Position numbers and translations under genes: made by a program
Source: Naumovozyma dairenensis CBS 421
Taxonomy: Eukaryota > Ascomycota > Saccharomycetes > Saccharomycetales > Saccharomycetaceae
Direction: 5' to 3'
DNA length: 64,000 nt
Assembly (NCBI RefSeq): GCF_000227115.2
Contig: NC_016489.1
Location: forward strand, 620,001-684,000
Shown: piece by piece, positions 10 to 60,806 of the stretch
Layout of the letters: every line of letters starts with the position of its first letter
How positions within the stretch are numbered: the stretch's first letter is position 1
The notes under the pieces: generated by a model
Seen by the model: the letters and a program-made list of their open reading frames with translations, nothing else
Told to the model about the DNA's origin: nothing
Databases searched by the model: none

Positions 10-1316
10 ATGATGTTTATGGGAGACCGTTCTTTTCCAGGCGCTGGTGATCAGCAACAGGTTCAACAACAACCGGGACAAGGACAAGCTCAGGGACTTC
101 CACAAATGTTTTCTTCTCAACTGAATAACCAACCTCATTTAGCCTCACAACAACAACAGCAACAACAACAGCAGCATCAAACACAGTCTGGTATGACTCT
201 ACAAGAATTACAAAAAAAGCAAGATAATTTGATGAATACCTATATGGCAAAACAAAAATTGGATGCATTACTGAGTCAACAATCTCATAGTCAAGGTCAA
301 GCCCAACCATCCCAAATATTTAACAATAACACAAATGCAAACATGTTGGCCAATTCACTGACGACTTCAGCTCCACCAGGATTGAATGTCTTCCAACCTC
401 AACAACAACAACCTCAGCAACAACAGCAGGGACAACAACAGCAGCAGCCTGGTATGATGAGACCTATAGCATCTCAGCTGTTAAAGCAACAGCAGCACCA
501 CCAGCAACAGCAACAACAACAACCGCAAACACAACAACAACTACCCCCACTAATGTTGCCGCCACCAAACCATCTTTTTATTCGTGAAGTTTGGTCTAAT
601 AACTTACATAGTGAATTCGTTATGATCAGAAAATTAATTAAACAATACAATTACGTATCAATCAGTACCGAGTTTGTTGGAACCATGGCAAGACCTATTG
701 GTAATTTCCGTTCAAAGACAGATTATCATTATCAAACAATGAGATCCAATGTTGATCTTTTAAATCCAATTCAATTAGGTATTTCATTGAGTGATTCTCA
801 AGGGAATAAACCTGATAATGGTCCCTCTACATGGCAATTCAATTTCCAATTTAATATTTCTAATGAAATGATGTCTAATGAATCTATTGAACTGTTAAGA
901 AAGTCAGGTATAAATTTTGAAAATCATGAGAAAAATGGGGTGGAATTAATGGAGTTTGCTCAATTAATTATTGATTCTGGTCTCTTACTGGATTCTAACG
1001 TTACATGGATTACTTATCATACAGCCTACGACCTAGGATTTTTGATTAATATTTTAATGAATGATTCAATGCCAAATAATAAAGAAGATTTTGAATGGTG
1101 GGTCAATAAATATATGCCAAACGTTTATGATCTAAATTTGATCCATAAGATAATTAAAGATTTTACTCAACAACCTCCGGGATTACCTGGCTTATTGAAT
1201 CCTAATGACAACTCCAATAATACTAATAATCTTTCCGGTAATGCTGGATTGAATGCGTTGGGTGTACCACCACCTCCACCTCCTCCACCAGGCGTCAATA
1301 TCACCGACTCTACGGC

Positions 1317-1350
<34 letters not shown>

Positions 1351-1566
1351 CCATCCCAGCATCATCAGTATACTTTAACATCTTTAGCCGATGAGTTAGG
1401 TATTCCAAGATTCCCAGTGTTTACGACAACAGCTGGACAAAGTTTATTAATGCTATTATCTTTTTGTCATTTAAGCAAATTATCGATGCATAGATTCCCC
1501 GACGGTACTGATTTTGTCAAATATAAAAATGTTATTTATGGTATCAATGGTATGATCGATAATTGA
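10..1566 (+). CDS. POP2: CCR4-NOT deadenylase subunit Pop2/Caf1
   Basis: Pop2 is a 3'-5' poly(A) nuclease subunit of the cytoplasmic CCR4-NOT complex and removes mRNA tails. Residues 1 to about 185 are Gln-rich low complexity, as in the S. cerevisiae protein. The RNase D-like (DEDD superfamily) domain follows. Catalytic positions read S-T-E in VSISTEFVG (about 219-221), D in YHTAYDLGF and Q in AGQSLL, the same non-canonical S/E/D/Q set as S. cerevisiae Pop2. About 60 residues of Pro/Asn-rich sequence, including runs of eight P and eleven N, interrupt the domain between the third and fourth catalytic positions. The ATG at 10 is the first in the window, but the frame stays open to base 1 (Q-P-H), so the true start may lie outside and the 5' end may be partial. 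BRE5 follows on the same strand, as in S. cerevisiae, but 6.5 kb away. Confidence 0.95.
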
Positions 1567-1636
1567 TATTCATCATTCTATTATTGTATTTTTCATCATA
1601 CCTGTATATTTCATTCCACAAGTAATATTTTGAAAC

Positions 1637-1668
<32 letters not shown>

Positions 1669-4600
1669 TATATACATACATACATACAAACATACATATA
1701 TAACGCTATTATTGTATATATATATATATACCGTCATATACACTATTCAAATTGTCTCTACATTTAATATATATACAGTAATTAAAGATCGATTTGACTT
1801 TATAGCTGGTGAAACGAAATTGCTCGCATAGGCAAATGTCACTGTATCTTTCGCTTGCAAAGAAAGGGAAGAGTGTCTACTGTCTTCATTGGCAAGAAAA
1901 AAGTTGGAAAATCCCTACTGTAAACTTATGAACATACATAGATTAGTTACTCTATCAAGCATATAGCAGAGCTCATCCAGGTGGACTGCATATCATTATC
2001 ATGCATAGGACTATGCGATCTAATCAGAAGCTCCCAGATTAAATCTCTGAACGAAGTCCGTACGGATTCCTTCTTTTTAAATCCTGCTGTTGTTGCCTAC
2101 AGGTATCAAAGAGACCAGCTCTGATGAGAGCCAAAGTTATACCCACAACTATGCTATAGGAATGGCTGAGTGGTATATGATCTTCTCTATATGCTTGCTT
2201 TTAGAAATGAAATCAGCACCTTAAAGTACTAATTCAAACTCCAAACCTATGAACATATTTGGCAGAGTGTTACCATCTTCTGCAATACAGAGTGTACTCG
2301 ATACAACTAATTGTCACTCACCGTCAGTTTTGAGCTCCTGAGAGTAAACCTATAGAAAATCCTAAGATCCTAAGATTTTTGTAAGGAAAGGCTAAGGGCC
2401 AGAAAGAAATGACCCACAAAAGTCATAACACTAATTGTTGCTGCTTTTCGTAATTTCTGATAGTTCAGCTAAGCATCATTCAGAAAGTATTACTTTCATA
2501 GCAAAAGTTACGTATTTTTTGTGCTTTCCAATTAAATAGCTCAACCTTTATGGAATGTAATTACGTATTCAATACTTGAAGACGATTTGTTTCTAATCCC
2601 TAATAAAACAGATATTTCTTTCCAACTTTATGCAAATGCTAACAATTCATTTTGGCATGAAAAACTGTATATCAAATAAATTATTTTGGTACCATTATCA
2701 ATTCCTTCTTTTATGATATGACCACTTTCAGACATGATTTGCCAATTTTTCGATGACTTGCACCGAAGATAGAAGGGTTAGAAATGGTAGCCACACTATT
2801 GTCTAAGAAGTTCAAGGCTAACTTATTTGTTATTGTTGCAATCTATCTCGGTATAAGCTTTTACGTAATCTTAGGTATAACACCGAATAAGATGGATCCC
2901 CCTCCTGACAGAATTCTATCTTTTACATTTCAGTGGTCTTCTTGTAACGAGAGATATCTTTATCAACATTTTTATCGTTTCTTTTGCCTTATGAAAAATA
3001 ACTTACTTGTGGGAGTAACGAACGATCTCAAATAAATCAGCTTCAAAAACCTGGATGGTAGAAAATAACTGATGGAGTACTTGCCTAACTAGTGACGGTA
3101 TTTACAACTTTATTATTATTGGAATGCTGAATCCCTCTGTCAAAATAGAAGATAGTTCAGATCATGAGCAAAACTTGGATACTTACCGTTTAATGTAGAA
3201 ATCTTGCCATTGAGTTTTTTAGAACCGATAATGGACAATTTAGCACGTTCGATTCTTTAAGAAAACGGGTTTATTAGCGGTACCATATTTGCTGACTGAT
3301 TGAAGGCGTTTGTATAGCTGCCTCAGCAAATGAAATCGTAATTTATTTTGGACGTATGGTTTGTGGACCAGAACTTCTTGACCAAATGACAAAAGACTTG
3401 AAACACTGGAACGAAGGTGCAATGCTCGGGCCGAGTGACGAAGTGAATCTATATACAGACTTTCCCTTATTAAATCAGAAGATAAGACATGTAGAAAGGC
3501 ACACTTTGAGGTAGCAACTTAGAGTTAAGTAATGTACGACAAACGTCCATACCAGTAAAATCCAGAAGTCCCATTGTTAGAAGATGAATTCCAACTGAAG
3601 TTTACAATAATAAAATACCTTATTTACTGAAGACAGCTGAATTACACGGTATATATATCCTGGTGTCATAAGTTCGGAGCTCCAAAAATAAATATAAATT
3701 ACCCTCCTCCCTTATGACCACCCATGACATTGGTGCCCACTAATATGAAACGTTATATATATTTTCAGTATTCAACGCCATTAAAAAAAAATATGGCTCT
3801 TTTGTGAAAATATCCTTGTGAACTTTGTGTATTTGCCGCAACATGTATCTCATCGATTAACTCTTCCTTCCTGTTTCAGTCTATATCTATTCAATTTAAG
3901 ACATTCAATAGTGAAGAGACCCATAAGAGTGCAACATCTATTTTTTTCCCACAGTATGGCGCCCCCATCATGTGAAGACTCGTAGTAACCACTGGTAACA
4001 AACGGTTACCAATGGTAACTGTCGGTCCTTCGGACTTGGGCGTGTAACTCCTTCCTAATCCGGAAACCACTTACACAGCCCGGGGCCATTGTTTACTTTT
4101 CCTTTCTGGGACCGATGGCCCTTAATTTTGATGCTTTTGTGGCACCAGCACTTTCTTTCTTTGAGACAATGGAGGAACCCTTTGTGTTGTGTCTGAAGTT
4201 ATCCTAAAAAAGAGTAATGGCTCCCATGACTCAAATGGGTAAAGAACGGTTGCTACGTATGGATTTAGCAGTCACTTTGAACGTTTGGTGCTTTACAATT
4301 ATAATGAGATGGAACACTTAAGAAAAAATGGTAGAATACCTGTCGGAAATTGAGTACTTTCGGGTAAGACAAGATATCAATCTCCTGTCTGGTAAATATT
4401 TAAGTATCACCAGGAAAATTCACTTGGGGTAGCCTTCAAAATGGTTCTACTTTCCTCAAGATCCCTATTTTTTCAAACGAAGAAGTGTATCAAAAGTTGA
4501 CCACAACATACTAATTCTCCATCTCTCTTTCCTTTTTCTTTGTCTTTGTAATTATTCATTTTTTTCTAACAGTTTTGCACATTAAAGTATTCTCAGCCTT

Positions 4601-31445: not shown

Positions 31446-33684
31446 TTAGATAATATTCATCTTTTCGAAAACGTTTCTAATTTGATCAAAGAATAAATCT
31501 GTCTTACCACTCATAGAATCTGAATCGACTAAATTTTCAAAGTTAATCTTATCCTCATGTGCTGGTTCTTCGTGCGCTTGTTCTTGCACTTTCCCGTTCC
31601 ATAAGTCGGAAATGTCACCACCAGCTCCGTTATAAATCAGTTTATTTGGAGTTCCATCTGGTAAATCGTACAAGATGTCACTTGTCGAATAAGCAATCAA
31701 CTTCTTTTTCAATTGTTCAGGTGTAATCTTCCCATCACTCTTTGAATTAAAGAACCCGGATTTAGAATCTGGTTGTAAAGAAAGGAAATAAGTCAACAAC
31801 CCAGCTACATGAGGTGAAGCCATTGAAGTTCCTGATAGCGTAGCAGTATTATCATTGCCATCACCAACATAAGTGGATAAGATGTTCAAACCAGGAGCAA
31901 AGACATCGACACATCTACCCCAATTAGAGAAATAAGCTCTATCATCACTTAAAGTGGAAGCACCTACTGTTATGGCATTTTCTGCCGAGGCAGGAGAACT
32001 ATTACAAGCATCTTGATTTTCATTCCCTGCAGCAACACTAAAATGAATCCCAGCTTCCACGGCAGCGTTAACAGCCAAATCCAAAGTTGGAGATTTACCA
32101 CCACCAAGTGACATATTTGCTGTGGACCCCTTATAATCTTTCTTATTTTTTTCATTATTTAAATGAGTTTCAGCAGCAAATTCAACACCTTTAATAACAT
32201 CACTCATTGAGCCTGATCCATTTGATCTTAAAACTTTCACAGCAACCACTTCTGCATTCTTAGCAACACCATAATGAGTGGATGCAATGGTACCAGCACA
32301 ATGAGTCCCATGACCATTACCATCAATATCTTGATCATTTGATGGTATAGTTTTCCCCCAAATAGCTCTTTTACCGAAATCTACATGATTGACATTTATC
32401 CCCGTATCAATGACGAAACAAGTTACACCCTTACCTGCATCATCATCATATAGATATTTATTGAATGATCCCAAGTTTAATCTTTCTCTATGGGATATTC
32501 TTGATAACCCCCATGGTGCGTTATTTTGAGTATTAAATTCTGTGGTTTGGACTATGGAATCACGTTCCACGTATTTGACTAGAGGGTTTAATCTTATTAG
32601 ATCGATTACTTCTTGGGTGAAATAACCTGAATAACCGGAGAGGATATTGTTTATGTTGAAAGAGGAGATTATACCCCCATTTCTGAAAGATTCTTCTTCT
32701 TCTTCTGATGTAGAATGGAAGAAATGGTGATGTGGTGGTAATCTTGATGCAGATTGTTGTTGAATTTCAGAGATTAATTCCTTGTGATATGAGATTTCAT
32801 CGATGTTGATGGAATCCTTAAAGACAATGATATATTTATTTGGTAAAATTCTTGGATGTTTGAATCCTTGAGTGTGGATGTCATCACCGAAAGTTGGAGT
32901 AATTAATGGAGCTAATTTAATATCTTGATCATCTTGATCATCTTGATCTTGATCTTTTCCTGCAGCATTTGGTGTATTATCTTTCAATTTTCTAGCAGAT
33001 TCGATGATTTGTTTGGAATATTTATGAAATATGTCACTGTACTTGTCGTTTGATACTTGTTTGTTGTCATCGGGGCGCTTGTGATGAGGACCATCGTGAG
33101 GACCGTCGTGAGGACCATCATGTGGTGGATGAGGTGGCTTGTGATGAGGACCGTCGTGAGGACCATCGTGTGGTGGATGAGAGGTGGCTTGTGGTGAGGA
33201 CCCTTGTGAGGAGGATGTGGAGGGTGGGTATTTATGATCTAGACCATCGTGTGGAGCATCATATGGATGATGAGGTAGTTTATGATCTAGACCATCGTGT
33301 GGAGCATCATATGGATGATGAGGTAGTTTATGATCTAGACCATCGTGTGGAGCATCATATGGATGATGAGGTAGTTTATGATCTAGACCATCGTGTGGAG
33401 CATCATATGGATGATGAGGAGGCTTTGGAGGATGATGAGGTGGTTTATGATGTTTCTTCTTCTTGTCCTTCTTATGTTTCTTTTTATGTTCCTCTTGCTT
33501 TTCGAAAGGATATTCACGATCATTACGACGTTTTTCGTTTTTGTGAATGGTTTTCTTCATTTGTTGTTAGTTGTTTGTCATTATCACCATGATTATTCTC
33601 GTTCTTGGCTATTTCTGGGATAACCAATGCGGAGGAGACCGTAGCCAAAGCCAAAGCCGAGATTACGGCAGATTGCAGTTTCAT
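31446..33684 (-). CDS. PRB1: Vacuolar proteinase B (subtilisin family), with an apparent N-terminal frameshift
   Basis: Prb1 is a vacuolar subtilisin-family serine protease made as a preproenzyme. The main frame (ATG at 33560) has a Lys/His/Pro-rich propeptide, then an inhibitor-like propeptide domain (NKYIIVFKDSINIDEI), then the catalytic domain with Asp in CFVIDTGINVNH, His in GNGHGTHCAGT and Ser in LSGTSMASPHVAG. The C-terminal end resembles Prb1 (FDQIRNVFEKMNII). The main frame lacks a signal peptide. One starts in another frame at ATG 33684 (MKLQSAVISALALATVSSAL) and closely resembles the S. cerevisiae Prb1 start. That frame ends at 33523, so a one-base change is needed between 33523 and about 33569, where two A5 runs lie. 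A sequencing error or a real lesion are both possible. The SOM1/PCM1 neighbours confirm the PRB1 locus. Confidence 0.85.
33233..33424 (-). repeat. 48-bp minisatellite inside the PRB1 propeptide
   Basis: Four near-identical 48-bp units start at 33233, 33281, 33329 and 33377 and encode a 16-residue repeat around PHHPYDAPHDGLDHK. A related degenerate PHDGPHDGPHHK array follows at 33080-33180. The unit is a multiple of three, so copy-number change keeps the frame. Confidence 0.9.
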
Positions 33685-48594: not shown

Positions 48595-50664
48595 TCAAAG
48601 ACCTTCGTTTCTTTTGATTTCATTCATTAATTGTAAACCTTGTAATCTTTCCTCATATAGTGCTGCTAATTTACTAACTTTATTCTCAGTTTGCAATCCA
48701 GAAAATCCTTCATTTGAAAATTTAGTCGTTTTCAAATGGTTAAGTTTAACTAAATTATTCCTTTTCTTTTGTAATTCTCTATCAAATTTTTGGAATTTAT
48801 CATCTAGCTCAATCTTAAGTATCATATCATCATTCCATGGTCTTCTTTCCTTAGCATTGCGCCTCCAATCATAGGATTCGTTATCTGTTACCATCTCCGT
48901 AACATTATTTGTTGGATGTGGATGTGGCTCATTGATATCCTTCAGTAATGTAGGGGTTTCATTACTATTGGAAGTTGATGATGAATCACTATTTATCCGC
49001 AGAGATATATTTGATACTTTGGATCTCAAAATTGGTGATGATGGTGAAATGATTTCATCTGAACGTAAAGATACATTTGAAGCCTTGGAGCTTAATAATG
49101 GTGGTTTCCCGAAGGAACGTAATGATACATTTGAAGCTTTCGAATTTAATGATGGTATCGTTTCATTTGTTAATTCAAGATTTGGAGTTGAATCTGAAGT
49201 GGAGCTTGAAGGAGTATTCGTTTTTGTAAGTACTGTGGATATGGAGGGTATTGAAGATTTTGAATTTAGACTTCGGTTTTGCATTGCTGTTCTGCTTTTA
49301 ACTGGACTAGAACTACGACTCGAATTGGTATCATATTTAGTCGGGCTTAATTTCCGTGGTTTAGGCAAAGACGGTGGTAGTGATGGGATAGACGTGGATT
49401 GTTGAGATATGATCCTCGTCCCACCAGTTGCAGATACTGTTCTATTAGTTCTACCCTCCCTTGGTTTTGGTGATGGACTCTGTAAGAGTAGGTCCACATC
49501 TTGAATATGAAGTTTGTTCATTTTGGAAAGTGAATGGATCTTATCGTACATTTCCAGTAAATTTCTAATAAATCTTGCACCGATAACTAAAGTATCATCA
49601 TTTTTCATTGAAACTCTCTCCTGACATAGCGTAGGTGCCAAACATTTGCTTAATGATTTAAGGTCATGTCTTGTTATCTCTGAATGGTTTAAAATGTTAA
49701 TAAACAGGGGGAAAATTGTCATTATTAAATCGTAATAATTATTATACAAAATAATTGTTTGGAAAGTCTTATATGTATAATCGAAGTCATCGCTAATTGG
49801 TAAAGGGATTAAAGGTACGGGTATTAACGGCTTACTCTTTTGTTTTAAAAAGTATGTAAAAACTGATGCCAATGAATAAATATCCCATTGTGACAAGTCA
49901 ATGTAATTGTTCCGTTCAATAATATCAAGGAATATGTTTACTTTTTTGTAAGAACCTGGTTTTTGGAAAACTAACTCGTTCTTAACGGAATCTATCTTTA
50001 ATCTTTTGAAGATTTTATCGAAGATTAATTGCCTATACTGTCTGTTTCCTAATGATGTTAACCTTTCAAAATAACTCTGAGGTACATCAATGTAATCAGT
50101 TATTTCGTAATCATGCAAATATACATTAAGCGATATACGTAGTCTTGTGATATCTATCATTCTCGACAATGCAGTTAAATCCGGGACGTGGACTATAGAT
50201 GCATTTGGAGAAAGATTATTATTTTGCTCTATTGATTCTGGATCAACTGTGGGGATAAGCTCAAGATCCTTATTAGAAGGGCCTTTCAAAAAATTTATAC
50301 TCATGGCATTGGAAAGTACCTGATACACTGTTCTTATGAAAAAGGATTCATGGACAATATAAGTCTTTTGTAAGTAGATCCTTGCTTCTCTCGGGATCTT
50401 AGAGAACATTTTGATACCGTAAACCCAACTAATTTTCTTAGCTGAAAATCCAGAGGAAAATACCACTAGTGAATACGGTGATGAGGGTAAAGTAGTGATA
50501 AGTCTATCCATCAATTCGTCAATCAAAAGATCATAAACCTGTTTATCTCCAATTTCCTCTGGAGAAGGTAGGTAAGTGGAATCAAAAACATAAATAGAAT
50601 GACCAGTAATTGGGTCTATTGAATATGATTTAAAAAAGATGTTATTTGTATTAATGTTTATCAT
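48595..50664 (-). CDS. ECM25: RhoGAP-like protein Ecm25
   Basis: Ecm25 is a budding-yeast protein linked to cell-wall organisation and polarity, with a RhoGAP-like region. Residues 1 to about 170 include VYDLLIDELMDRLITTLPSSPYSLVVFSSGF and WVYGIKMFSKIPREARIYLQKTYIVHES, resembling the CRAL-TRIO/BCH-like part that precedes RhoGAP domains. The GAP-like region covers about 210-400 (DLSQWDIYSLASVFTYFLKQKSKPLIP and LKSLSKCLAPTLCQE). A long Ser/Pro-rich linker contains three degenerate repeats of KASNVSLRS. A coiled-coil-like end follows. The 689 residues compare with 599 in S. cerevisiae. Linkage to ACO2 supports the assignment. Confidence 0.88.
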   Translation of the reverse strand: MININTNNIFFKSYSIDPITGHSIYVFDSTYLPSPEEIGDKQVYDLLIDELMDRLITTLPSSPYSLVVFSSGFSAKKISWVYGIKMFSKIPREARIYLQKTYIVHESFFIRTVYQVLSNAMSINFLKGPSNKDLELIPTVDPESIEQNNNLSPNASIVHVPDLTALSRMIDITRLRISLNVYLHDYEITDYIDVPQSYFERLTSLGNRQYRQLIFDKIFKRLKIDSVKNELVFQKPGSYKKVNIFLDIIERNNYIDLSQWDIYSLASVFTYFLKQKSKPLIPVPLIPLPISDDFDYTYKTFQTIILYNNYYDLIMTIFPLFINILNHSEITRHDLKSLSKCLAPTLCQERVSMKNDDTLVIGARFIRNLLEMYDKIHSLSKMNKLHIQDVDLLLQSPSPKPREGRTNRTVSATGGTRIISQQSTSIPSLPPSLPKPRKLSPTKYDTNSSRSSSPVKSRTAMQNRSLNSKSSIPSISTVLTKTNTPSSSTSDSTPNLELTNETIPSLNSKASNVSLRSFGKPPLLSSKASNVSLRSDEIISPSSPILRSKVSNISLRINSDSSSTSNSNETPTLLKDINEPHPHPTNNVTEMVTDNESYDWRRNAKERRPWNDDMILKIELDDKFQKFDRELQKKRNNLVKLNHLKTTKFSNEGFSGLQTENKVSKLAALYEERLQGLQLMNEIKRNEGL

Positions 50665-51101
50665 GTCTTGGTAAGTCTTTGTGAGTCTTGAAACGGCTAG
50701 ATATTACGTTGCCTATTAGGGATAAAAGATGTTTCTTTTTACTTAATTTTTTTGGAGTATAAGATCATGTAACTTGTTAAGTTAGATATTTCTCGAGGAT
50801 TTGTCCCAATTACTTTTCTTTGTGATGCTACTCCCCATCTTACAGATTATATAAGTGCTTGAAAGTCATTGTTGATCTTCTGTTGTTTACTTTTATGATT
50901 TTTTTTTTTTTGCTTTTTCAGTTTCGGAATAATGTTGCTTACGAAATACGATTTTCTCGAGGAAGTGACGTAGAGGCTAAAAGGAACTGGAACAACCTTT
51001 ATCACTATGGGGTCATCGAAATTATGTTCTCATTAGAGACTAAAAATATGTCTAATTAGTTGATTTCTTTCGAACAAGTGGAATGGATAATTGTATTGGC
51101 T
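50665..51101. promoter_or_regulatory. Divergent promoter ECM25/CHA1
   Basis: This 437-bp spacer lies between divergent genes. A T-rich run occurs near 50878-50892 and TGACGT near 50967. No serine-responsive Cha4 site could be confirmed by eye. Confidence 0.45.
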
Positions 51102-52106
51102 ATGTCTTTTATATACAATAAAACACCGCTATTACGTCAAACATTTGATAGTGCTAAGATTGGTCCGAGGATATTCTTGAAATATGAAAATCTTCAACCC
51201 AGCGGAAGCTTCAAAAGTAGAGGTATTGGCTGCTTAATTCTGCAACATATTAATAAATTAAAACAAGATGGGAATAAAACTGCACATGTGTTTTCTAGTT
51301 CTGGTGGAAATGCTGGTCTTGCTGCCGCTACAGCCTCTCGAAGCTTACAAGTTCCCTGTACAGTCGTTGTCCCAAAGTCGACGAAGGAGAGAATGGTCAA
51401 TAAGATCAGAAAAACAGGTGCTTCTGTTCTTATTAAGGGTGATCATTGGAAAGAAGCAGATGATTTCTTAAGAAAATCCATGAAGGAAATGGACAATACT
51501 CAAGAGCAACCAATTTATGTTCATCCTTTTGATGACCCGGTTATTTGGGAAGGTCATTCAACTATTATCGATGAAATTGTCCAAACATTACAGACTGAAA
51601 AGATTTCCATTGAAAAAGTGAAGGGTATTATATGTAGTGTCGGTGGTGGTGGCCTTTTTAATGGTATTATTAAGGGTTTAGAAAGACATAATTTAGCCCA
51701 ATCTATTCCAGTTATTGCCGTTGAAACCAAAGGATGTGACGTACTTAATAAATCTTTAAAGAACGGAACCCCTGTGCAGCTGCCAAAGATTACTAGTGTG
51801 GCCACTTCACTGGGTTCAACGTACATTAGTTCAACTGCTTTTGAAAATGCTATGAAATATAATTCTCGCTCTATTACTCTTAATGATAAGGATGTTCTGG
51901 AGACTTGCTTGAAATATAACGATGATTTCAGTATGACTTTAGAACCGGCCTGTGGGGCATCTGTTCATTTAGCTTATAATCCAGGCATTGTTGAATCAGC
52001 TTTAGGGACAGCGTTAAGTAACCATGATATTGTGATAGTGGTTCTATGTGGAGGTTCTTCATGTACTCTCCATGATTTAGAATCTTTGAATTCAAAGCTG
52101 GTGTAG
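51102..52106 (+). CDS. CHA1: Catabolic L-serine/L-threonine dehydratase
   Basis: Cha1 is a PLP-dependent mitochondrial deaminase that lets yeast use serine and threonine as nitrogen sources. The PLP lysine lies in QPSGSFKSRGIG. SSGGNAGLAAATA is the substrate/phosphate loop, CSVGGGGLFNGI the glycine-rich cofactor loop, and EPACGAS and CGGSS complete the fold. The start is ATG 51102 (MSFIYNKTPLLRQ), matching the S. cerevisiae N-terminus; an upstream extension begins at TTG only. The 334 residues are about 26 fewer than in S. cerevisiae, with the C-terminal tail missing and no continuation in other frames nearby. It is convergent with the Dicer-like relic. Confidence 0.92.
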   Translation: MSFIYNKTPLLRQTFDSAKIGPRIFLKYENLQPSGSFKSRGIGCLILQHINKLKQDGNKTAHVFSSSGGNAGLAAATASRSLQVPCTVVVPKSTKERMVNKIRKTGASVLIKGDHWKEADDFLRKSMKEMDNTQEQPIYVHPFDDPVIWEGHSTIIDEIVQTLQTEKISIEKVKGIICSVGGGGLFNGIIKGLERHNLAQSIPVIAVETKGCDVLNKSLKNGTPVQLPKITSVATSLGSTYISSTAFENAMKYNSRSITLNDKDVLETCLKYNDDFSMTLEPACGASVHLAYNPGIVESALGTALSNHDIVIVVLCGGSSCTLHDLESLNSKLV

Positions 52107-52508
52107 TCTATTGGAATAAGTCTCATCAAAAATCCTTGGACACTTTTTCTACTGTATTTAATATCAACATATATTAAGTACTTAGGTCCTAGGAAAATTA
52201 CTAGATGGATAAATAACAAAATTGATTAGTATATGAAAAAACAAGTTGGCAATATTTTTGGTATTAGATTACCAAAGAATGGAGTATCCCCCTAAACTAT
52301 GTGTGGGAATGTATAGAGAGGCTCTATATATATATATTGCGTTTATATTTTCGATCACAATAAAGTGGGGTAGAAAAAGGTCGATTTAAGACCACTTACC
52401 AAATGAAAAAGTTCATAATTTATTTTCTCTAAAGGGTCTGTTTTAAGTATTTATTGTAACTATGAAATTAATAATCATCTGCTCTTTTAAACGTATCATA
52501 ACGGCCCC
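52107..52508. other. Convergent intergenic CHA1 / Dicer-like gene
   Basis: This is 402 bp between the CHA1 stop and the probable original end of the Dicer-like frame at 52509. Only AT-rich sequence and a TA run at 52326-52338 are seen. Confidence 0.55.
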
Positions 52509-54001
52509 CTATTTATCCATCTTTGTTTTCAAAAAAACGGAGAGATTATCATCCTTCAGGGCATTAAAAGCTGCCATTTGCTCAGCTAGCTGTTTTCTTG
52601 CACCACTACCTTCACTTAGTCTGTATTTTTTTTGCCTTTGACATAACATATGGAATGGAATAGCCCTGATTTCGTTTTCCTAGTTCTATAATGCGGTTTA
52701 TAATATCTCTTACCAAGAAGGGCATATAATTCCTCTTTGAAACTCTTATCAAGTGTTCCTTGCTTCGATTCACCATTTGTCTCAAGTTTTGAAGAGGACT
52801 CATTTATTGGATGGTTCGCATTCGTGAGGCCATCACCATTATCTGTCTCCCCAAGCGCTGTATTGTTGCTTTTGCCAGGTCTGTCGGAACCTTCAGGTGT
52901 TTCTTTTGCCATTTTCATCAATTTTCTTGCCTTATCAAAGTTGTTTGATGCCGTGTAAAGTGCAATATTCCTTTCTTGATCGGTCATAGAATCTTTCTCC
53001 ATATCATCTAGGGATCTCTTCTTAAAAGTTATTTTTCCTTCGGTTGGTTTTAATCTTTTTGTGTTTCCCTGAAAACCTTTAGATTGTAGTAAGTATAATT
53101 TTTGGATCGCATTTAAAGCAGCATTCTCTTCAGCGTCAATAAAAGTATCTCCTGAACCAAGAGAAAGTTCCTCTTTCCCGAAGTCAAGCTTAATAATAAG
53201 GGGAGGAGTATCAGATATTTTCGAATATTTGAGTTCTAGACATAATGGATTCGGAAGTAATTTTTCTTCCAAAAGAGCTTTATTAGTTTTATAGGTCGGG
53301 GCTTGGGGATCTTCATACAAAGATTCTATCCATTCAGTTACGTCTGGTGGAGGTGAGCCATTGTTGTCAATTATCAATGAACCAATATATTGTTTGAATA
53401 CCAAAGGATAGTTGGTTGTAGTGCCCAGTTCAAAAAATTTTAGGGAGTTTACGCCATTTATCCAGAATCTTGTATTTTTATTTTTCAATATTTCATTTAC
53501 TTTACTGGTAAGACTTTTTGAATCAATAAGCGGGAATTGCTTGAATAGAACATTGGTAAGAATAGAAGTTAGCCACACTTCACCTAGTGCTGTTAATCGA
53601 TCAAAATATAAATGTTGCTTTTCAGGTGTACTCGTTGCTTCTCCTAACCCTGCAAAATTTAATTTCAATTGCCCATTAATGATGGGTGGTGAACACGATA
53701 ATGCCAAAGATAAGGGTAATTGAAGATTGCATTTTATTTGCGTGTCTAATTTCTTTAACTCCATCAAGTTCTTGTTATTTGAGAAGTAACGTATGGCATT
53801 ATCGTTTGTGATTATTTTTCCTACTTCACTATCCCCAGCAGCGTTGATACGATTCAGGTCCTCCTCAGATATAGAATTTTCAGATAAAACTTTGATTGAT
53901 TCATGTAATTTACGAACGGCTCGCCGTATTTGGAATAGTTGGGTCACTTGTTGAACGCCAGTGATGATGGTCTCCGAAGGCTCGCTGTTTGAGAAATCCA
54001 T
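52509..54001 (-). pseudogene. Dicer-like RNase III protein (Dcr1 type), catalytically degenerate and frameshifted
   Basis: From ATG 54001 the frame gives 461 residues. An N-terminal helical region (1-125) is followed by an RNase III domain: FDRLTALGEVWL fills the place of the signature ERLEFLGD, and YPLVFKQYIGSL the place of ADVFEAYIGGL. The acidic catalytic residues are thus D (for E), T, E (for D), L (for D, about residue 200) and K (for E, about 203). dsRBD1 spans about 239-305 (LGSGDTFIDAEENAALNAIQ). dsRBD2 begins at about 424 and is cut by TAA at 52616. In another frame, directly after an A8 run (T8 at 52626-52633), the missing half appears (YRLSEGSGARKQLAEQMA) and runs to a stop at 52509. 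Two dsRBDs fit budding-yeast Dicer Dcr1; Rnt1 has one. It may be a dead RNAi gene or a non-catalytic dsRNA-binding protein. Confidence 0.75.
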
Positions 54002-55970
54002 AAGTAAAACTAGAAATGTAGTCCTTTGCACGCTACGTATTTGTTATCTGGTGTTTTCCTTTTGATCTCTGGAAAATGAAGTTGTTCCCTGACTTGTTTT
54101 TCATATATATGCATCTTGGAAGGTAGTATTGTAATGATAATCTGGTGTTATTAAAAGATCGTCACATAAATTTTTCAGTTGAATATTACCACAAACTTGA
54201 CCTAATATATCGCCAGGTGCAAATACTGAAGAAAAAAAAGGATCAAAAAAGGCAACCTTTTAAGCTCTAAGAATGTGGAACTGGAATCGTCTTCGTATGA
54301 GGATAGTATAAAGATATCATTGAATGGAAATGAAAAGTTTGGTAAGTTTTTTTGAAAATAGAAATTATTTATATTTTTCTTCCTAGATGTATATTGTCAA
54401 CTAGATGCTAACTTGTTAAAGAAAAACATTTAAAATACTGGAAAGTAAACAAATAACAAACATTTTCATCTTAGTAAAATTTGCTGATTTAGTATTATAG
54501 CCACTATCTCTGTTCTTCTCCGCAAGGCTTAGCAATGTGATGTTATGAATCAGTGCGGTGTATGTTACTGTTTTTGTTAATTACTTGACTATTACTTAAT
54601 AGTATATATGTTATTCCATTGAATGTGCTTCCATCACCAACAATTCGAAGCAAAACCAGTTGTTACCAGATTTCTTCGTATCAAGAGAGTATCCTTTTTA
54701 ATCTTTTGTCTTATTACATTGTCCACTTATATGTTATACACCACCATTCAAGAAGTTCGTCTTGGTTACATGTTTACTCAAGTAAAAGGTGTTTTCATAA
54801 TAATCAATGTATTACTCTTTTGTTCAAAAAGAAGGTAGAAAACGGGACATCTCATAAATAGATGCAAGAACAAACTGCCACTACCTTGTTGTTTATGCAG
54901 TAACTTTAAGTTTCTTTTATATTACAGACAAAAAAAGACCGCCAAAAATATCGAGTTTTTCTTTCTCTTCAAATATATAAGGTTATTGGAATATATGGTA
55001 CATATATGTCGACTTGCAAAAGGGACATCGATTTCAGATACACAATATTGTCATAAGGTATGGTAGATATGCCGAGACGACAAGGAAAAAGAAAATCTTC
55101 ACGATGAGATATCATCGAGAAATCAAATATATAAGAAATATATATATATATATACGTTACGTATAGTACTCTTTGGCAAATGACTAAAAGGACGACTGGT
55201 TATACCTTGAAAAAGTGTAAGTAACATTGCTACACATATTTCTCCCGATTTAACTGATCCAAAGTACAGTTAAAACCTATTTCCAACAAAGGTATTATCT
55301 ATTTCTCACTAAAAATGAGAGAACAGGTTGTTGTATATTTTTTTCTCTCTTTAATGTTGCAAGTCAGTAATATTTAAAAGCAGTAATCGAAAATTTCAAA
55401 TCATGTATTTCCAGCTGGAGTTGGTAAAAGACGGTTGGAGAAGTTCTGACTGAAAAAAACACCCATGTTTAAGAAAAATCAAACTCTCTCCTCCCTAATA
55501 TATATCTTAAAATGTAATGATTTACGCTCCCCTTTTTTCACAGAGTTTTTGTCTGTTTTAATAAGTATGTATTAACAGTTTAAATTTATCACATTAAATA
55601 GATTAGCTTTGTATCCTAGGGAGTACTCACTTGAAGAGCTCGAGATTTGATACGGGAGCGATAAGAAGTAAAAAGGGAGTCAATGTCCTTCAAACTACTG
55701 TATGACGTTTTACCAACGCAGAGTATTTGAATTCGATTCATTTCATTATAATTTTAATGCATGACACACTCCCTCAATCGAATATAACTTTGTCAAGGAG
55801 CACCATTAGTATGCCAATTCTTTAAACAGAAATTAAGAAATTGGTGACAGAGAATGGGGAAGGGTTAAACTACATAGTGAAATTTAGGGACTGCTACGTA
55901 CTACGTACGATGTCGCCTGTTATGTAATTTAGTTTCTATCATATAAATTCTTTTGGCCATCCCTTTCGAG

Positions 55971-56233
55971 CAGGCATGTTACGGGTAGAAATAATTTTCT
56001 AGCCTACTCTCTTTTGGCCCTTCCTAGCCTACCCTAACCAGGTTCTAGCCTAACCCCCCTAGTTTTACCCAAAATATTTTTGGGCTGTGTTTTCTGGCAC
56101 TTAACCTAGAACCGATTTTTTCTACCCCTACTTGTGTCCTAAAATTGGAAATTTCTACCCCTACTCCTAGCCTAACTTTTGAGTCAAAAAATCGCATCTA
56201 CCTCATCCCCTAGACGAACCAGTAACATGCCTG
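55971..56233. mobile_element. hAT-like MITE (non-autonomous DNA transposon)
   Basis: The 263-bp element has perfect 12-bp terminal inverted repeats, CAGGCATGTTAC on the left and GTAACATGCCTG on the right. It is flanked by an 8-bp direct repeat, CTTTCGAG at 55963-55970 and CTTTCAAG at 56234-56241, with one mismatch. An 8-bp target duplication and termini beginning CAGG are typical of hAT superfamily elements. The interior has no transposase, but carries repeated CTAGCCTA units (at least four) and two TTTCTACCCCTAC units, like hAT subterminal binding repeats. hAT families (Rover, Roamer) are known in Saccharomycetaceae. The mismatch in the duplication suggests an insertion of some age. Confidence 0.75.
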
Positions 56234-57470
56234 CTTTCAAGAAATAATATTTTTAGAAGATCTTCCTTCAATAACTGCCGTAGCAAATTTGTACGTACGG
56301 ACTCCCCGGTAAGACAATTTCCCTAATAAAGACCGCGCGAGCTATAACATGCGATAAAACCATTTGTCTGAAAATTACAAAATTTGTCTTCCCCAAAAAC
56401 TGACAAATGTAGACCTACGGGAAAATGCTCGGGTATCTGAAGACTCAGACATCCACGCGAAATATGAAGTCTTTTTTTGGAACCAAATGTCACGGTGTTT
56501 TCCTCTTTTAGAAAAACAAAAGAAGAACTCGTAGAAGACAACTTAGAAAAGTTTCTCGTAAAATGGTCACCTTTTTCGACAACAGAGTTATCTTCAGGTA
56601 TCAATACGTACCGGGGTGGGAGAGAAGTGTGGCCACTTTTGTCCCACCTGGATAGTACCGACCCTAGACTATAGCTTACGTTAGGTAGCAATATACAAAG
56701 AAAACATACTTCACCTATTCATGTCAAAGGTAATACTTAGTAAAAGTGACCAATTCAATAAAATAGGAATCGATACATTATAATATCTTGCCCGAAAGTC
56801 TACCGGTCCAAGGCCATCCGTACTAACTCCAGTACTTTGATCGGGACCCGCAGTTTGGGGTTTCCTAAACCACGAAAAATGAGAATAGTAAGTAAAACTG
56901 CATTACAGGTTTATCGTAGCCCTTATGGATAAGATAAATTTTCTTTACAATATTTCAAGATAAAATTCTCACTAACGCGGAATTTCGCTTACTCCACATT
57001 TTTCTACAATAGAATTTTTTTATGGCATGTGTGCCCCGTAATGACAATATGCAAGTTTATTCCGCATTTTTCTTTGTGGAAGTCGCTGAAAAAAAATTTC
57101 TTCCATCACGAGGTCTAAGTTATTAACTAGGAACTTGGGGTGTAGTAAACCTGTACGTGATGAGAAGTTCTGAGAACGATAAAAATCTGGGGTAAATGAC
57201 CACTATACAGATAAATTCCGGGAACTCAAGTCTCCCTGTTACGGAACGAATGTACGCAGTATTTTTTTTATTATACTTATTTCCTCATATGTTTTAGGGC
57301 ATATAGGTCACCTGGGCATAATTTCCTGCGGAAGAAAAGTGAAAATGTGACATGTTGTTCAAACCGTTGAGAGAAATTGCATAGACGAAGGGGGCAACCA
57401 CATGTGTTTACGTCTGTTCGACACCTCTATTCCAGATACTTCAAAAAACGCTAAATATCTGCAGCAACCC

Positions 57471-57506
57471 GGGGAATTCGTGGGGAACGTGGGGAAACAC
57501 GGGGAA
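57471..57506 (+). promoter_or_regulatory. Array of four GGGGAA motifs in helical phase
   Basis: GGGGAA occurs at 57471, 57482, 57491 and 57501, spaced 11, 9 and 10 bp. Two copies fit the Mig1 core (G/C)(C/T)GGGG exactly: CCGGGG at 57469 and GTGGGG at 57480. The third also reads GTGGGG. The array lies about 730 bp upstream of the hexose transporter ATG. Rgt1-like sites (CGGANNA or its complement) occur at 57058-57064, 57329-57335 and 57710-57716. Glucose control is inferred from family knowledge. Confidence 0.5.
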
Positions 57507-58070
57507 AGAAAAAACTTTGTTCTCAGACGATTATCGTTTGTAATTATTTTGTCTGAAAAGGAGAAAATTACTCTGAGAAGACTTCTTGGAAAGACAAAAA
57601 GAAAACGTTCCACCGAAAAAAGTAAGAAATATATGTTGACACAGCAAAGAATGTACCGCACAAACCTAAAATAAAATGTTATCCCCAGAATGTCTACTCC
57701 TTTGATATTTTGTCCGTGTATATTACTGGAAGGCCGGGATAACTTTTTTCTCTTTTTCATGACACATGACTACGATTTTCCTTGGAGTAAACAAAAACAA
57801 ATGCCTGGGAGACACCTGATACTCTGGAATCCTGTAGAGGCCCGCTGGTAGAAAACATTTTTCCTAATGTTTTTCTCCATTTGTCTTTTTCCTTTCCCCA
57901 CCACCCTGCATGCTGCGACGTTTTCCTGGTAAATATTGAAAATATTTTCTAGACAAATCGCTAATGTTTTGAAATCTTCAACAAACAACTGCGTTGTTCA
58001 TAATGTCCTCGAGAAATACAATATGCCATCAGCTTGGTTCCTCCTCGATCAACTTTCACAAAAAAATTTG

Positions 58071-58078
58071 TATAAATA
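58071..58078 (+). promoter_or_regulatory. TATA box of the hexose transporter gene
   Basis: TATAAATA lies 153 bp before ATG 58231 and is followed by a leader ending in an A-rich context (AACAAAAACAATG), as usual for strongly expressed yeast genes. Confidence 0.6.
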
Positions 58079-58230
58079 GTCAAGCTTTTCTGATTTTAAA
58101 ACATCAATATCCAGTCTTTCTTCTTTCAATAGTTTATTTAAATTTTTGAATATTGCAAAAAAAAAACCAGTATTCGGTATCAAATATTCACCCATAATAC
58201 ATTTACTACAAAACATTAATAACAAAAACA

Positions 58231-59943
58231 ATGTCTGAAGCTGCAGAAAATTCTTCTGCTCAATTAGAAACTCCAGTGGAACCCACTGTTTCCAACTCCG
58301 GTTCCCAATCTAACATGTCTGCCCCTTCAGTCAAAGATGCTAAGGACGAATTGAATGACTTTGACGTCGACCAACAACCTGTCCTTGAAATTCCAATCAA
58401 ACCTGCTTCCGCTTATGTTACTATTTCCATTTTCTGTACTATGATCGGTTTTGGTGGTTTTATTTCTGGTTGGGATACTGGTACCATTGGTGGTTTCTTA
58501 GCTCATCCAGATTATTTACGTAGATTCGGTTCCAAACATCATGACGGTAGTTACTATTTCTCTAATGTCAGAACTGGTTTAGTCGTTTCTATTTTCAATA
58601 TTGGTGGTTTAATTGGTTGTTTGACTTTAGGTGACTTAGCTAACAGAATCGGTCGTAAGATGGCTTTAGTTGCTGTTGTCATTATTTTCATTATCGGTTT
58701 AATTATTCAAATTGCTTCTATCGACAAATGGTATCAATATTTTATTGGTAGAATTATCTCCGGTATGGGTGTTGGTGCTATTTCTATTTTCTCCCCAATG
58801 TTACTATCTGAAGTTGCTCCAAAACATTTAAGAGGTACCCTAGGTTCCATGTATCAATTAATGGTTACTTTCGGTATTTTCTTAGGTGATTGTACTAACT
58901 ATGGTACTAAAGCGTATGATAACTCTGTCCAATGGAGAGTTCCATTAGGTTTATCATTTGCTTGGTGTTTGTTCATGATCGCTGCCATGTTCTTCGTTCC
59001 AGAATCTCCACGTTACTTGATGGAGGTTGGTAAAGTTGAAGAAGCTAAGGCATCTATTGCTACTTCTAATAAAGTTTCTGTTGAAGATCCAGGTGTTCAA
59101 GCTGAAATTGATTTAATTACTGCTGGTATTGAAGCTGAAAAAGCTGCTGGTAGTGCTTCATGGATGGAATTATTTTCGAGAAAAGGTAAGGTTTTCCCAA
59201 GATTATTTATGTGTTGTATGTTACAAACTTTACAACAATTGACTGGTTGTAACTATTTCTTCTACTATGGTACGGTTGTTTTCCAAGCTGTCGGTTTAAA
59301 GGATTCTTATGAGACCTCTATTGTTTTCGGTATTGTCAATTTTGCTTCCACTTTCGTTGCCTTTTACGTCGTTGATAGATTTGGTCGTCGTAGATGTCTA
59401 ATGTGGGGTGCTGCTGCTATGGTTGCTTGTTACGTTGTTTATGCTTCTGTTGGTGTCACTCGTTTACATCCTCATGGTGACGATGGTCCAACATCCAAGG
59501 GTGCTGGTAACTGTATGATTGTCTTCTCATGTTTCTTTATTTTCTGTTTCGCTTGTACTTGGGCACCAATTGCCTGGATTATTGTCTCTGAAACTTTCCC
59601 ATTGAGAATTAAACCAAAGGGTATGGCTCTTGCAAATGGTTGTAACTGGTTCTGGAATTTCTTAATTTCTTTCTTCACTCCATTTATTACCGGTGCTATT
59701 AACTTTTACTACGGTTACGTCTTTATGGGTTGTATGGTCTTTGCTTACGGTTATGTTTTCTTCTTCGTTCCAGAAACTAAGGGTTTAACCTTAGAAGAAG
59801 TTAATGAAATGTGGGAAGAAGGTATTTTACCATGGAAATCACCAAACTGGGTCCCATCCGCCAAGAGAGATGCATCCATGGACATGGAAGCTTTACAACA
59901 TGACGACAAGCCAATGTACAAGAGAATGTTCAGTAGAAACTAA
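58231..59943 (+). CDS. Hexose transporter of the HXT family
   Basis: This major facilitator sugar transporter for glucose and fructose at the plasma membrane has 570 residues, the same size as S. cerevisiae Hxt1. A Ser/Asp-rich cytosolic N-terminus (about 60 residues) precedes twelve predicted membrane segments. Family motifs: [10 protein letters not shown] in TM1, [13 protein letters not shown] after TM2, [12 protein letters not shown] in TM4, [17 protein letters not shown] before the central loop, [14 protein letters not shown] in TM7, [12 protein letters not shown], and [18 protein letters not shown] at the end. The C-terminal tail ([13 protein letters not shown]) is typical of Hxt1-Hxt4. 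Codon bias is strong, suggesting high expression. Which HXT it corresponds to cannot be decided because the family expanded independently. Confidence 0.96.
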
Positions 59944-60806
59944 TCTAAATAATGATATAATGACATGACTTCTTTACCTACTTAATTACAAATTTATTTA
60001 TCTATCACTCTATATAGTTTATTCTATTTTAATTTAATTGATTTTAATTTATCATTTTTATTTATGGAAAATTTGTCCGAGAGAGCTCAGGGATTTGAAA
60101 TCTTTCTCTGTAGCTTAACTATGTAATATTAAAACCTCATCTGGGAATCCCTTATATCTTTTAAAAAATACTGATATTCGGGAAGCAGAGTTATTCTTCA
60201 CCATTTATATAGTTATAGTGTCAGTCGGCCTGTGACGTAAAAAGTTGGGAAACCAGGAATGGTATAGGTGACTGCTTTGTGCTGTTAAAGGAAGACATTC
60301 AATTGCTTCAACATAACATCTTTCCCACGACAATAACACACCCAGGTCTTCATAGGATCATTACAGATAGAGTTATTACAGTCTATATACCCAAGTTTTC
60401 TCCATTATTTGGAGTAGAAGAAGGATATTAGTGTTTTTCAAGAAAGTCAGAGATAAATCATTAAACTATAATAGTAAATCAACATTCAGTTGCTGTTTAG
60501 CATAACATATCAAAACACCTATGCATTAGACGAATAGGATGTTACACGGTAAGGAATGACAAAATTTTTGGTGTTCTTTCGTGGCTCTAAAGCCGGCTTG
60601 GGTAGTACTGGCGCACTTCCACAAGAGAGTCGGAATAGTAGAAATTCGGATGAAGTTATATTAAATTTATATTAAATTATATTAAGTTATATTAAGTTAT
60701 ATAAAAGTATTATTGGTTGGATTATTTAGTATATATAAAAGAAATTTCTAAAAGTTTGTGCGAAACAAAACAGTAACATTTTTCGTAAGTCATAACAGAT
60801 GAAGAA
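59944..60806. other. Convergent intergenic HXT / ZWF1-like
   Basis: This 863-bp spacer lies between convergent genes and has no ORF. A TTATATTAAG-type repeat at 60655-60705 consists of about five degenerate 11-base units. A less AT-rich patch lies around 60570-60640. No RNA gene was recognised. Confidence 0.5.

Follow-up and report, generated by a model that had tools for sequence, protein, structure and literature searches.

The window analysed here, 64,000 nucleotides corresponding to bases 620001–684000 of contig 11 (C11), carries on its minus strand a Dcr1-like gene (D4) that is, judged by its matches and its domain order, a fourth copy of the Dicer gene of budding yeasts, and a highly divergent one. 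The reading we favour, with about even confidence, is that D4 is a predicted pseudo-Dicer that binds dsRNA, mainly by its second dsRNA-binding domain (dsRBD2), without cutting it. The stronger result concerns the genome as a whole (13,527,580 bases in 11 contigs were searched). There, two predicted dead Dicers appear together with two Dicer genes whose catalytic motifs are intact and two Argonaute genes. The features of D4 and its upstream flank are, in window coordinates:

52616..54001, minus strand: D4 open reading frame, first frame; residues 19–307 match Dcr1 of K. polysporus (PDB 3rv0), E 2.2e-14
53747..53950, minus strand: Dicers_N N-terminal domain (NTD), residues 18–85; PF20860, 25.8 bits on the protein and 28.7 bits in the genome search
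53303..53683, minus strand: degenerate RNase III fold region, residues 107–233, located by alignment to Dcr1
53579..53602, minus strand: signature octamer, ERLEFLGD replaced by DRLTALGE, residues 134–141, by alignment
53393..53404, minus strand: second acidic pair, D..E replaced by L..K, residues 200–203, by alignment
53081..53254, minus strand: dsRBD1, residues 250–307 (Pfam match 258–302); PF00035, 18.4 bits
52634..52753, minus strand: first half of dsRBD2, residues 417–456, first frame; 13/14 columns shared by D1, D2 and D3 are kept
52626..52633, minus strand: A8 run, site of the frame break, seen directly in the sequence
52509..52625, minus strand: second half of dsRBD2, 38 codons plus stop, neighbouring frame; dsrm 16.4 bits alone, a coding-like codon score and 6/12 columns kept
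54984..55290, no strand assigned: solo-LTR-like repeat upstream of D4, with at least 35 matches elsewhere in the genome

D4 lies 22 kb from the end of C11 opposite to that near which D1 is found, and its first reading frame (54001–52616) consists of 461 codons free of stops. Its best match in the PDB is Dcr1 of K. polysporus, and weaker matches are to Rnt1 (E 6.5e-4 and 8.4e-4) and mL44 (0.53). PF22935, used as a test for mL44, has no match in D4, and RNase_3_N (PF18497), which is present in the Rnt1 of this genome, has none in D4 at E values up to 1. Match strength and domains together rule out Rnt1 or, as judged by mL44, a mitochondrial ribosomal RNase III-fold protein, two identities that the initial annotation had raised against a Dicer. 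The Dicers_N domain is borderline, falling below the cut-off of 27 bits on the protein and above it in the genome search. In the core alignment, identity to K. polysporus Dcr1 is 53% for D1, 51% for D3, 31% for D2 and 25% for D4, and D4 differs from its relatives at ~75–81% of aligned residues. Its linker is also shorter than those of D1–D3. D4 is the fastest branch in the family tree, with 3.98 changes per column. The tree joins it to D2 at 88/87, and this grouping is weak because D4 and Rnt1 are long branches. Single-sequence structure prediction of D4 was unusable (pLDDT 34.9).

The four catalytic positions, whose assignment we take from bacterial RNase III, are occupied by E, D, D and E in D1, D3, K. 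polysporus Dcr1 and Rnt1, and by T, E, L and K in D4. Three of the four acids are lost outright in D4 (E to T, D to L and E to K), and the fourth is changed from D to E. The two substitutions first read from the letters alone, in the octamer at residues 134–141 and in the acidic pair at residues 200 and 203, are both recovered by the alignment, and the acids are replaced rather than displaced to other positions as had been considered. Across the RNase III part, D4 retains only one of 11 invariant acidic residues. Pfam reports no RNase III domain for D4, even with E values as high as 1 allowed, and the fold becomes visible only when D4 is aligned with Dcr1 of K. polysporus or, less clearly, with Rnt1. 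This part is also shorter (121 vs 139 residues), and the phenylalanine of the signature, an interface residue in bacterial RNase III, is an alanine. Both D4 and D2 are predicted to be catalytically inactive.

The dsRBD1 of D4 scores under the PF00035 cut-off of 23 bits, and in the alignment the basic residues at its second helix are lost. In dsRBD2, the piece ahead of the frame break (head) has no Pfam dsrm match and the piece beyond it (tail) scores 16.4 bits, while the two joined reach 31.4 bits (cut-off 23). This score across the break compares with 34.5 bits in D3, 24.5 in D2 and 22.7 in D1. A six-frame search of the genome with PF00035 returns no place in D4. The net charge of dsRBD2 is +9 in D4 vs -3 to +1 in D1–D3. 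On these scores and on the conserved columns given below, the broken domain is also the best-preserved domain of D4. The initial annotation had described the fold, dsRBD1 and most of dsRBD2 as recognisable; this holds well for dsRBD2, barely for the RNase III fold and weakly for dsRBD1.

The A8 run falls in the last codons of the D4 frame and is followed by 38 codons and a TAG at 52511–52509, in agreement with the earlier description of a frameshift exactly at this run and about 37 codons beyond it. The tail past the run is coding-like, more than expected by chance. Its codon score is 4.66. Among 704 in-frame stretches of the same length the mean is 4.50, and 51% of them have a score equal to or below that of the tail; among 1408 off-frame stretches, 0.2% score as high. 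A stretch of 38 codons without a stop occurs in 75 of these 1408. Since the tail codes and dsRBD2 scores best when joined, the break should be recent or absent from the organism. A scan for frame breaks was carried out on stop-to-stop ORF pairs in 138 kb (the window and loci L014–L021), with a first ORF of at least 150 codons and a continuation of at least 30. It returned two candidates, D4 and, at an A10 run, a gene in L017 (5181–8998, minus strand) that we take to be RCC1/BTB-like. The latter has a 51-codon coding-like continuation past its break, which suggests homopolymer errors in the assembly. The 138 kb contain 52 non-overlapping ORFs of at least 200 codons, with nine homopolymers of 8 or more, two of which are sites of a frame break; the count of breaks is a lower bound, as the scan missed that of D1. 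Breakage at two of nine long homopolymers favours run-length errors, and real slippage mutations fit as well. The A8 break thus probably stems from a miscounted homopolymer in the assembly or arose very recently.

Survival of the D4 frame was compared with neutral expectation, with the transition bias set at 2.5, under which 4.9% of random substitutions make stops. A neutral frame of 461 codons would have no more than a 5% chance of staying open once 0.134 substitutions per codon had accumulated. Fitting the D4 branch as neutral takes 2.4–2.5 substitutions per codon, with ~54 stops expected. A stop-free frame of this length at the residue divergence of D4 is therefore not neutral. Within the neutral period of 0.134, the probability of a change in every one of the four catalytic codons is 2.4e-4. 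Codon models, fitted on a single topology, give an omega of 0.24–0.26 for D4 over 291 codons, and omega = 1 is rejected (LRT 5.1–5.5, 1 df, p ~0.02). With a separate omega for each of the four domains (335 codons), a value of 1 is likewise rejected for D4 (LRT 20.9, 4 df, p 3e-4). By these models the D4 branch bears a signal of purifying selection.

Omega for the NTD, RNase III, dsRBD1 and dsRBD2, respectively, is 0.061, 0.023, 0.044 and 0.062 in D1/D3, 0.061, 0.164, 0.104 and 0.037 in D2, and 0.301, 0.324, 0.196 and 0.159 in D4, values that are rough given saturation at synonymous sites and an uncertain alignment in the eroded part. Omega varies among domains in both D4 (p 0.010) and D2 (p 3e-6). 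The lowest value falls on RNase III in D1/D3 and on dsRBD2 in D2 and D4, and in the latter two RNase III has the highest. The values in D4 are 2.6–14 times those in D1/D3, and its NTD is nearly as relaxed as its RNase III part.

At columns where D1 and D3 agree, D4 keeps 10/43 in the NTD, 21/101 in RNase III, 16/41 in dsRBD1 and 21/38 in dsRBD2 (dsRBD2 vs RNase III, p 1.5e-4). With the stricter set shared by D1, D2 and D3, the comparison of dsRBD2 with RNase III becomes 19/26 vs 14/30 (p 0.059). At columns shared by D1, D3 and K. polysporus, D4 keeps 19/78 in RNase III vs 22/60 in the NTD and dsRBD1 together, a difference that is not significant (p 0.135). Within dsRBD2, the tail of D4 is less well kept than the head at columns shared by D1, D2 and D3 (6/12 vs 13/14, p 0.026); the corresponding figures for D1 and D3 columns are 7/16 vs 14/22 (p 0.32). 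In D2, RNase III keeps 30/101 columns vs 81/122 elsewhere (p 6e-8), or 30/78 vs 36/60 when K. polysporus is included in the set (p 0.016), and the NTD keeps 31/43. Rnt1, a control taken as active, has the opposite pattern, with 47/78 in RNase III vs 17/60 elsewhere (p 2.7e-4).

A search of the genome with PF20860 (Dicers_N) finds four places, D1–D4. D1 (L014:4109–6046, plus strand, 645 aa) lies on C11, 18.6 kb from the end; its catalytic motifs are intact and its dsRBD2 is broken. This break occurs at an A5 run and in the direction opposite to that of D4, with the rest of the domain continuing in another frame. D2 (L015:3505–5556, minus strand, 683 aa) is internal on C7, has an unbroken frame and shares 22% identity with D4 across the core alignment. 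Its octamer is NRLEYLGA and its second pair E..N, giving E, A, E and N at the catalytic positions, where the second pair stands beside alignment gaps. Two of the four catalytic acids are lost outright, and at one more position D and E are exchanged. The Pfam RNase III score of D2 is 17.1 bits, under the cut-off of 27, and D2 is absent from the genome's five RNase III matches at E 0.001. The linker of D2 is acidic and SESE-rich. D3 (749 aa) is located on C5, 2 kb from the contig end. It contains Dicers_N, RNase III and two dsrm stretches above cut-off, and by this domain content it is a complete Dicer gene. Two Sir1-family ORFs (L016:267–824 and 963–1727, minus strand) adjoin D3 at the chromosome end, with PF11603 E values of 7.7e-28 and 0.0055, the second under the cut-off. 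A separate Rnt1 gene occurs on C11 (L017:3293–4846, plus strand).

Two Argonaute genes are also present, on C10 and C4 (L018:2268–6119 and L019:2902–6468), with PIWI E values of 2.8e-70 and 3.2e-64 and 53% identity over most of their length. Both carry GADVTH, GEE (the glutamate segment), YRDG and YAD, motifs that we take to hold the catalytic D-E-D-D. Each is adjoined by an FKBP-like gene, presumably resembling Fpr3/Fpr4. This shared context suggests that two copies from a whole-genome duplication were kept, and the Argonautes are probably both copies of that event. Searching the genome for AGO1 and a second DCR1, as first proposed, therefore yields two Argonautes and three more Dcr1-like genes. 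The early suggestion of a recent loss of RNAi is not supported and is rejected on gene content, since the genome carries both Argonautes, their PIWI motifs intact, as well as D3, a complete Dicer gene.

The repeat at 54984–55290 has at least 35 further matches across the genome, a count that covers partial matches and comes from the 40 candidates scored out of 57; its length and copy number point to an LTR. A second solo-LTR-like repeat is found upstream of D4 at 55968–56238, with 13 matches elsewhere, again including partial ones. No RNA families were found in window positions 50000–60000 and no tandem repeats in positions 50000–58300. Further away, an ORF at 31446–33560 (minus strand), which we take to be subtilase-like, contains tandem KLPHHPYDAPHDGLDH repeats in its N-terminal part.

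The dropped nuclease, together with a dsRBD2 that is kept and charged up to +9, fits a dsRNA-binding accessory or competitor. D4, like D2, would act in this capacity alongside the live Dicers, binding dsRNA or siRNA, and would fill a job given elsewhere to separate dsRBD partner proteins of Dicer. The break at A8 would then reflect a wrongly assembled run length, or damage so recent that other decay has yet to follow. Of the three possibilities first proposed for this gene, a dead paralogue that persists as a dsRNA-binding protein has the strongest support, from the paralogues, the erosion of RNase III and the retention of dsRBD2; the binding itself is a prediction. More tentatively, D2 and D4 may both be Dicer accessories built from Dicer itself, having given up cutting and kept their dsRNA-binding ends, which might hand over, hide or phase dsRNA. 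However, the fast branch of D4 and its raised omega in all domains also fit decay. D4 could be a pseudogene at an early stage, in which catalysis was lost first and constraint afterwards and the frameshift at A8 truly inactivated the gene, and we consider this quite conceivable, although short of probable. The frame is broken as sequenced, and the break of D1 in the same domain indicates that loss of dsRBD2 may be ongoing in the family. Decay is less easily reconciled with the lack of stops in both the 461 codons and the 38-codon tail, an omega below 1 on the D4 branch, a tail with the codon score of average coding sequence, and better conservation in dsRBD2 than in any other domain.

The remaining alternatives are given less weight than a non-cutting, dsRNA-binding D4. 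The dead RNase III fold might pair with D1 or D3, so that each dimer makes one cut or the enzyme is blocked. Such pairing would be in keeping with the well-kept NTD of D2, with Dcr1 being a homodimer (PMC7528652) and with the live and dead RNase III proteins paired in trypanosome editosomes (PMC9508840). The worst-kept parts of D4, however, are RNase III and the NTD, its RNase III part is shortened and the signature phenylalanine is lost; this explanation is unlikely for D4 and would fit D2 better. Slippage by -1 on the A run, or transcriptional slippage, could join the halves of D4 and provide two products of one gene. The run does form a slippery heptamer in the right frame, as was originally proposed, and both halves are well kept. 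No stimulatory RNA structure is found in the 90 bases downstream of A8 (z 0.36; 124 of 200 shuffles fold as well), A8 is not rare in coding sequence (5 runs in the 52 long ORFs, including that of D4), and the A5 break of D1, which requires the opposite direction, argues against a shared programmed shift. We regard slippage as very improbable. Least likely is a D4 that is still an active RNase with displaced catalytic residues: an acid is kept at one position (D to E), but the changes at the other three, the single invariant acid remaining and the lack of a Pfam RNase III match speak against it.

Dead RNase III partners are documented in trypanosome editing; an independent case in RNAi is, to our knowledge, not known, and a limited search of the literature found no report on the D1–D4 genes. 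Such a set, together with the two Argonautes, would be an example of an RNAi pathway that expands through gene duplication and recruits its pseudo-enzymes from the enzyme itself. According to PMC7528652, the RNAi pathway of budding yeasts seems to be the most streamlined among those characterised, and its known components number three: Dcr1, Ago1 and Xrn1. If the reading is true, this three-protein system becomes a pathway with dedicated pseudo-Dicers serving a live Dicer and two Argonautes.

Several known systems invite comparison. Rnt1 likewise combines RNase III with a dsRBD and is encoded by a separate gene in this genome. It has RNase_3_N in place of Dicers_N, however, and is a far weaker match to D4 than Dcr1 is. 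R2D2, Loquacious and TRBP are dsRBD partner proteins of Dicer that are not known to derive from Dicer. They resemble D4 in having dsRBDs without nuclease activity (a prediction in the case of D4) beside a Dicer and an Argonaute. D4, in contrast, derives from Dicer, and its contact with a partner is hypothetical. D2 is the closest parallel within the genome in that it too is a Dcr1 copy whose active site has changed, with low omega in the NTD and dsRBD2 and a place beside D4 in the tree. It differs from D4 in its unbroken frame, its well-kept NTD and the low identity between the two.

KREPB6-8 of trypanosome editosomes are also dead RNase III paralogues that exist beside live ones, and multiple live/dead pairs of this kind are called so far unique to kinetoplastids by the authors of PMC9508840. 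These proteins differ in having zinc fingers, in serving RNA editing and in forming heterodimers documented by cross-linking, mutants and modelling; any pairing of D4 is hypothetical. The budding-yeast Dcr1 proteins (K. polysporus, 3rv0; N. castellii) share with D4 the order Dicers_N, RNase III, dsRBD1, linker and dsRBD2. They are unlike D4 in that its acids are replaced, its RNase III part is eroded, its linker is shorter than in D1–D3 and its dsRBD2 contains a frame break. As a homodimer, Dcr1 dices dsRNA into siRNAs of 22–23 nt, an activity predicted to be lost in D4. In Dcr1 itself, dsRBD2 is dispensable in vitro and required for normal siRNA levels in cells, and it has been proposed to act as a dsRBD accessory factor, e.g. 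by passing siRNAs to Argonaute (PMC7528652).
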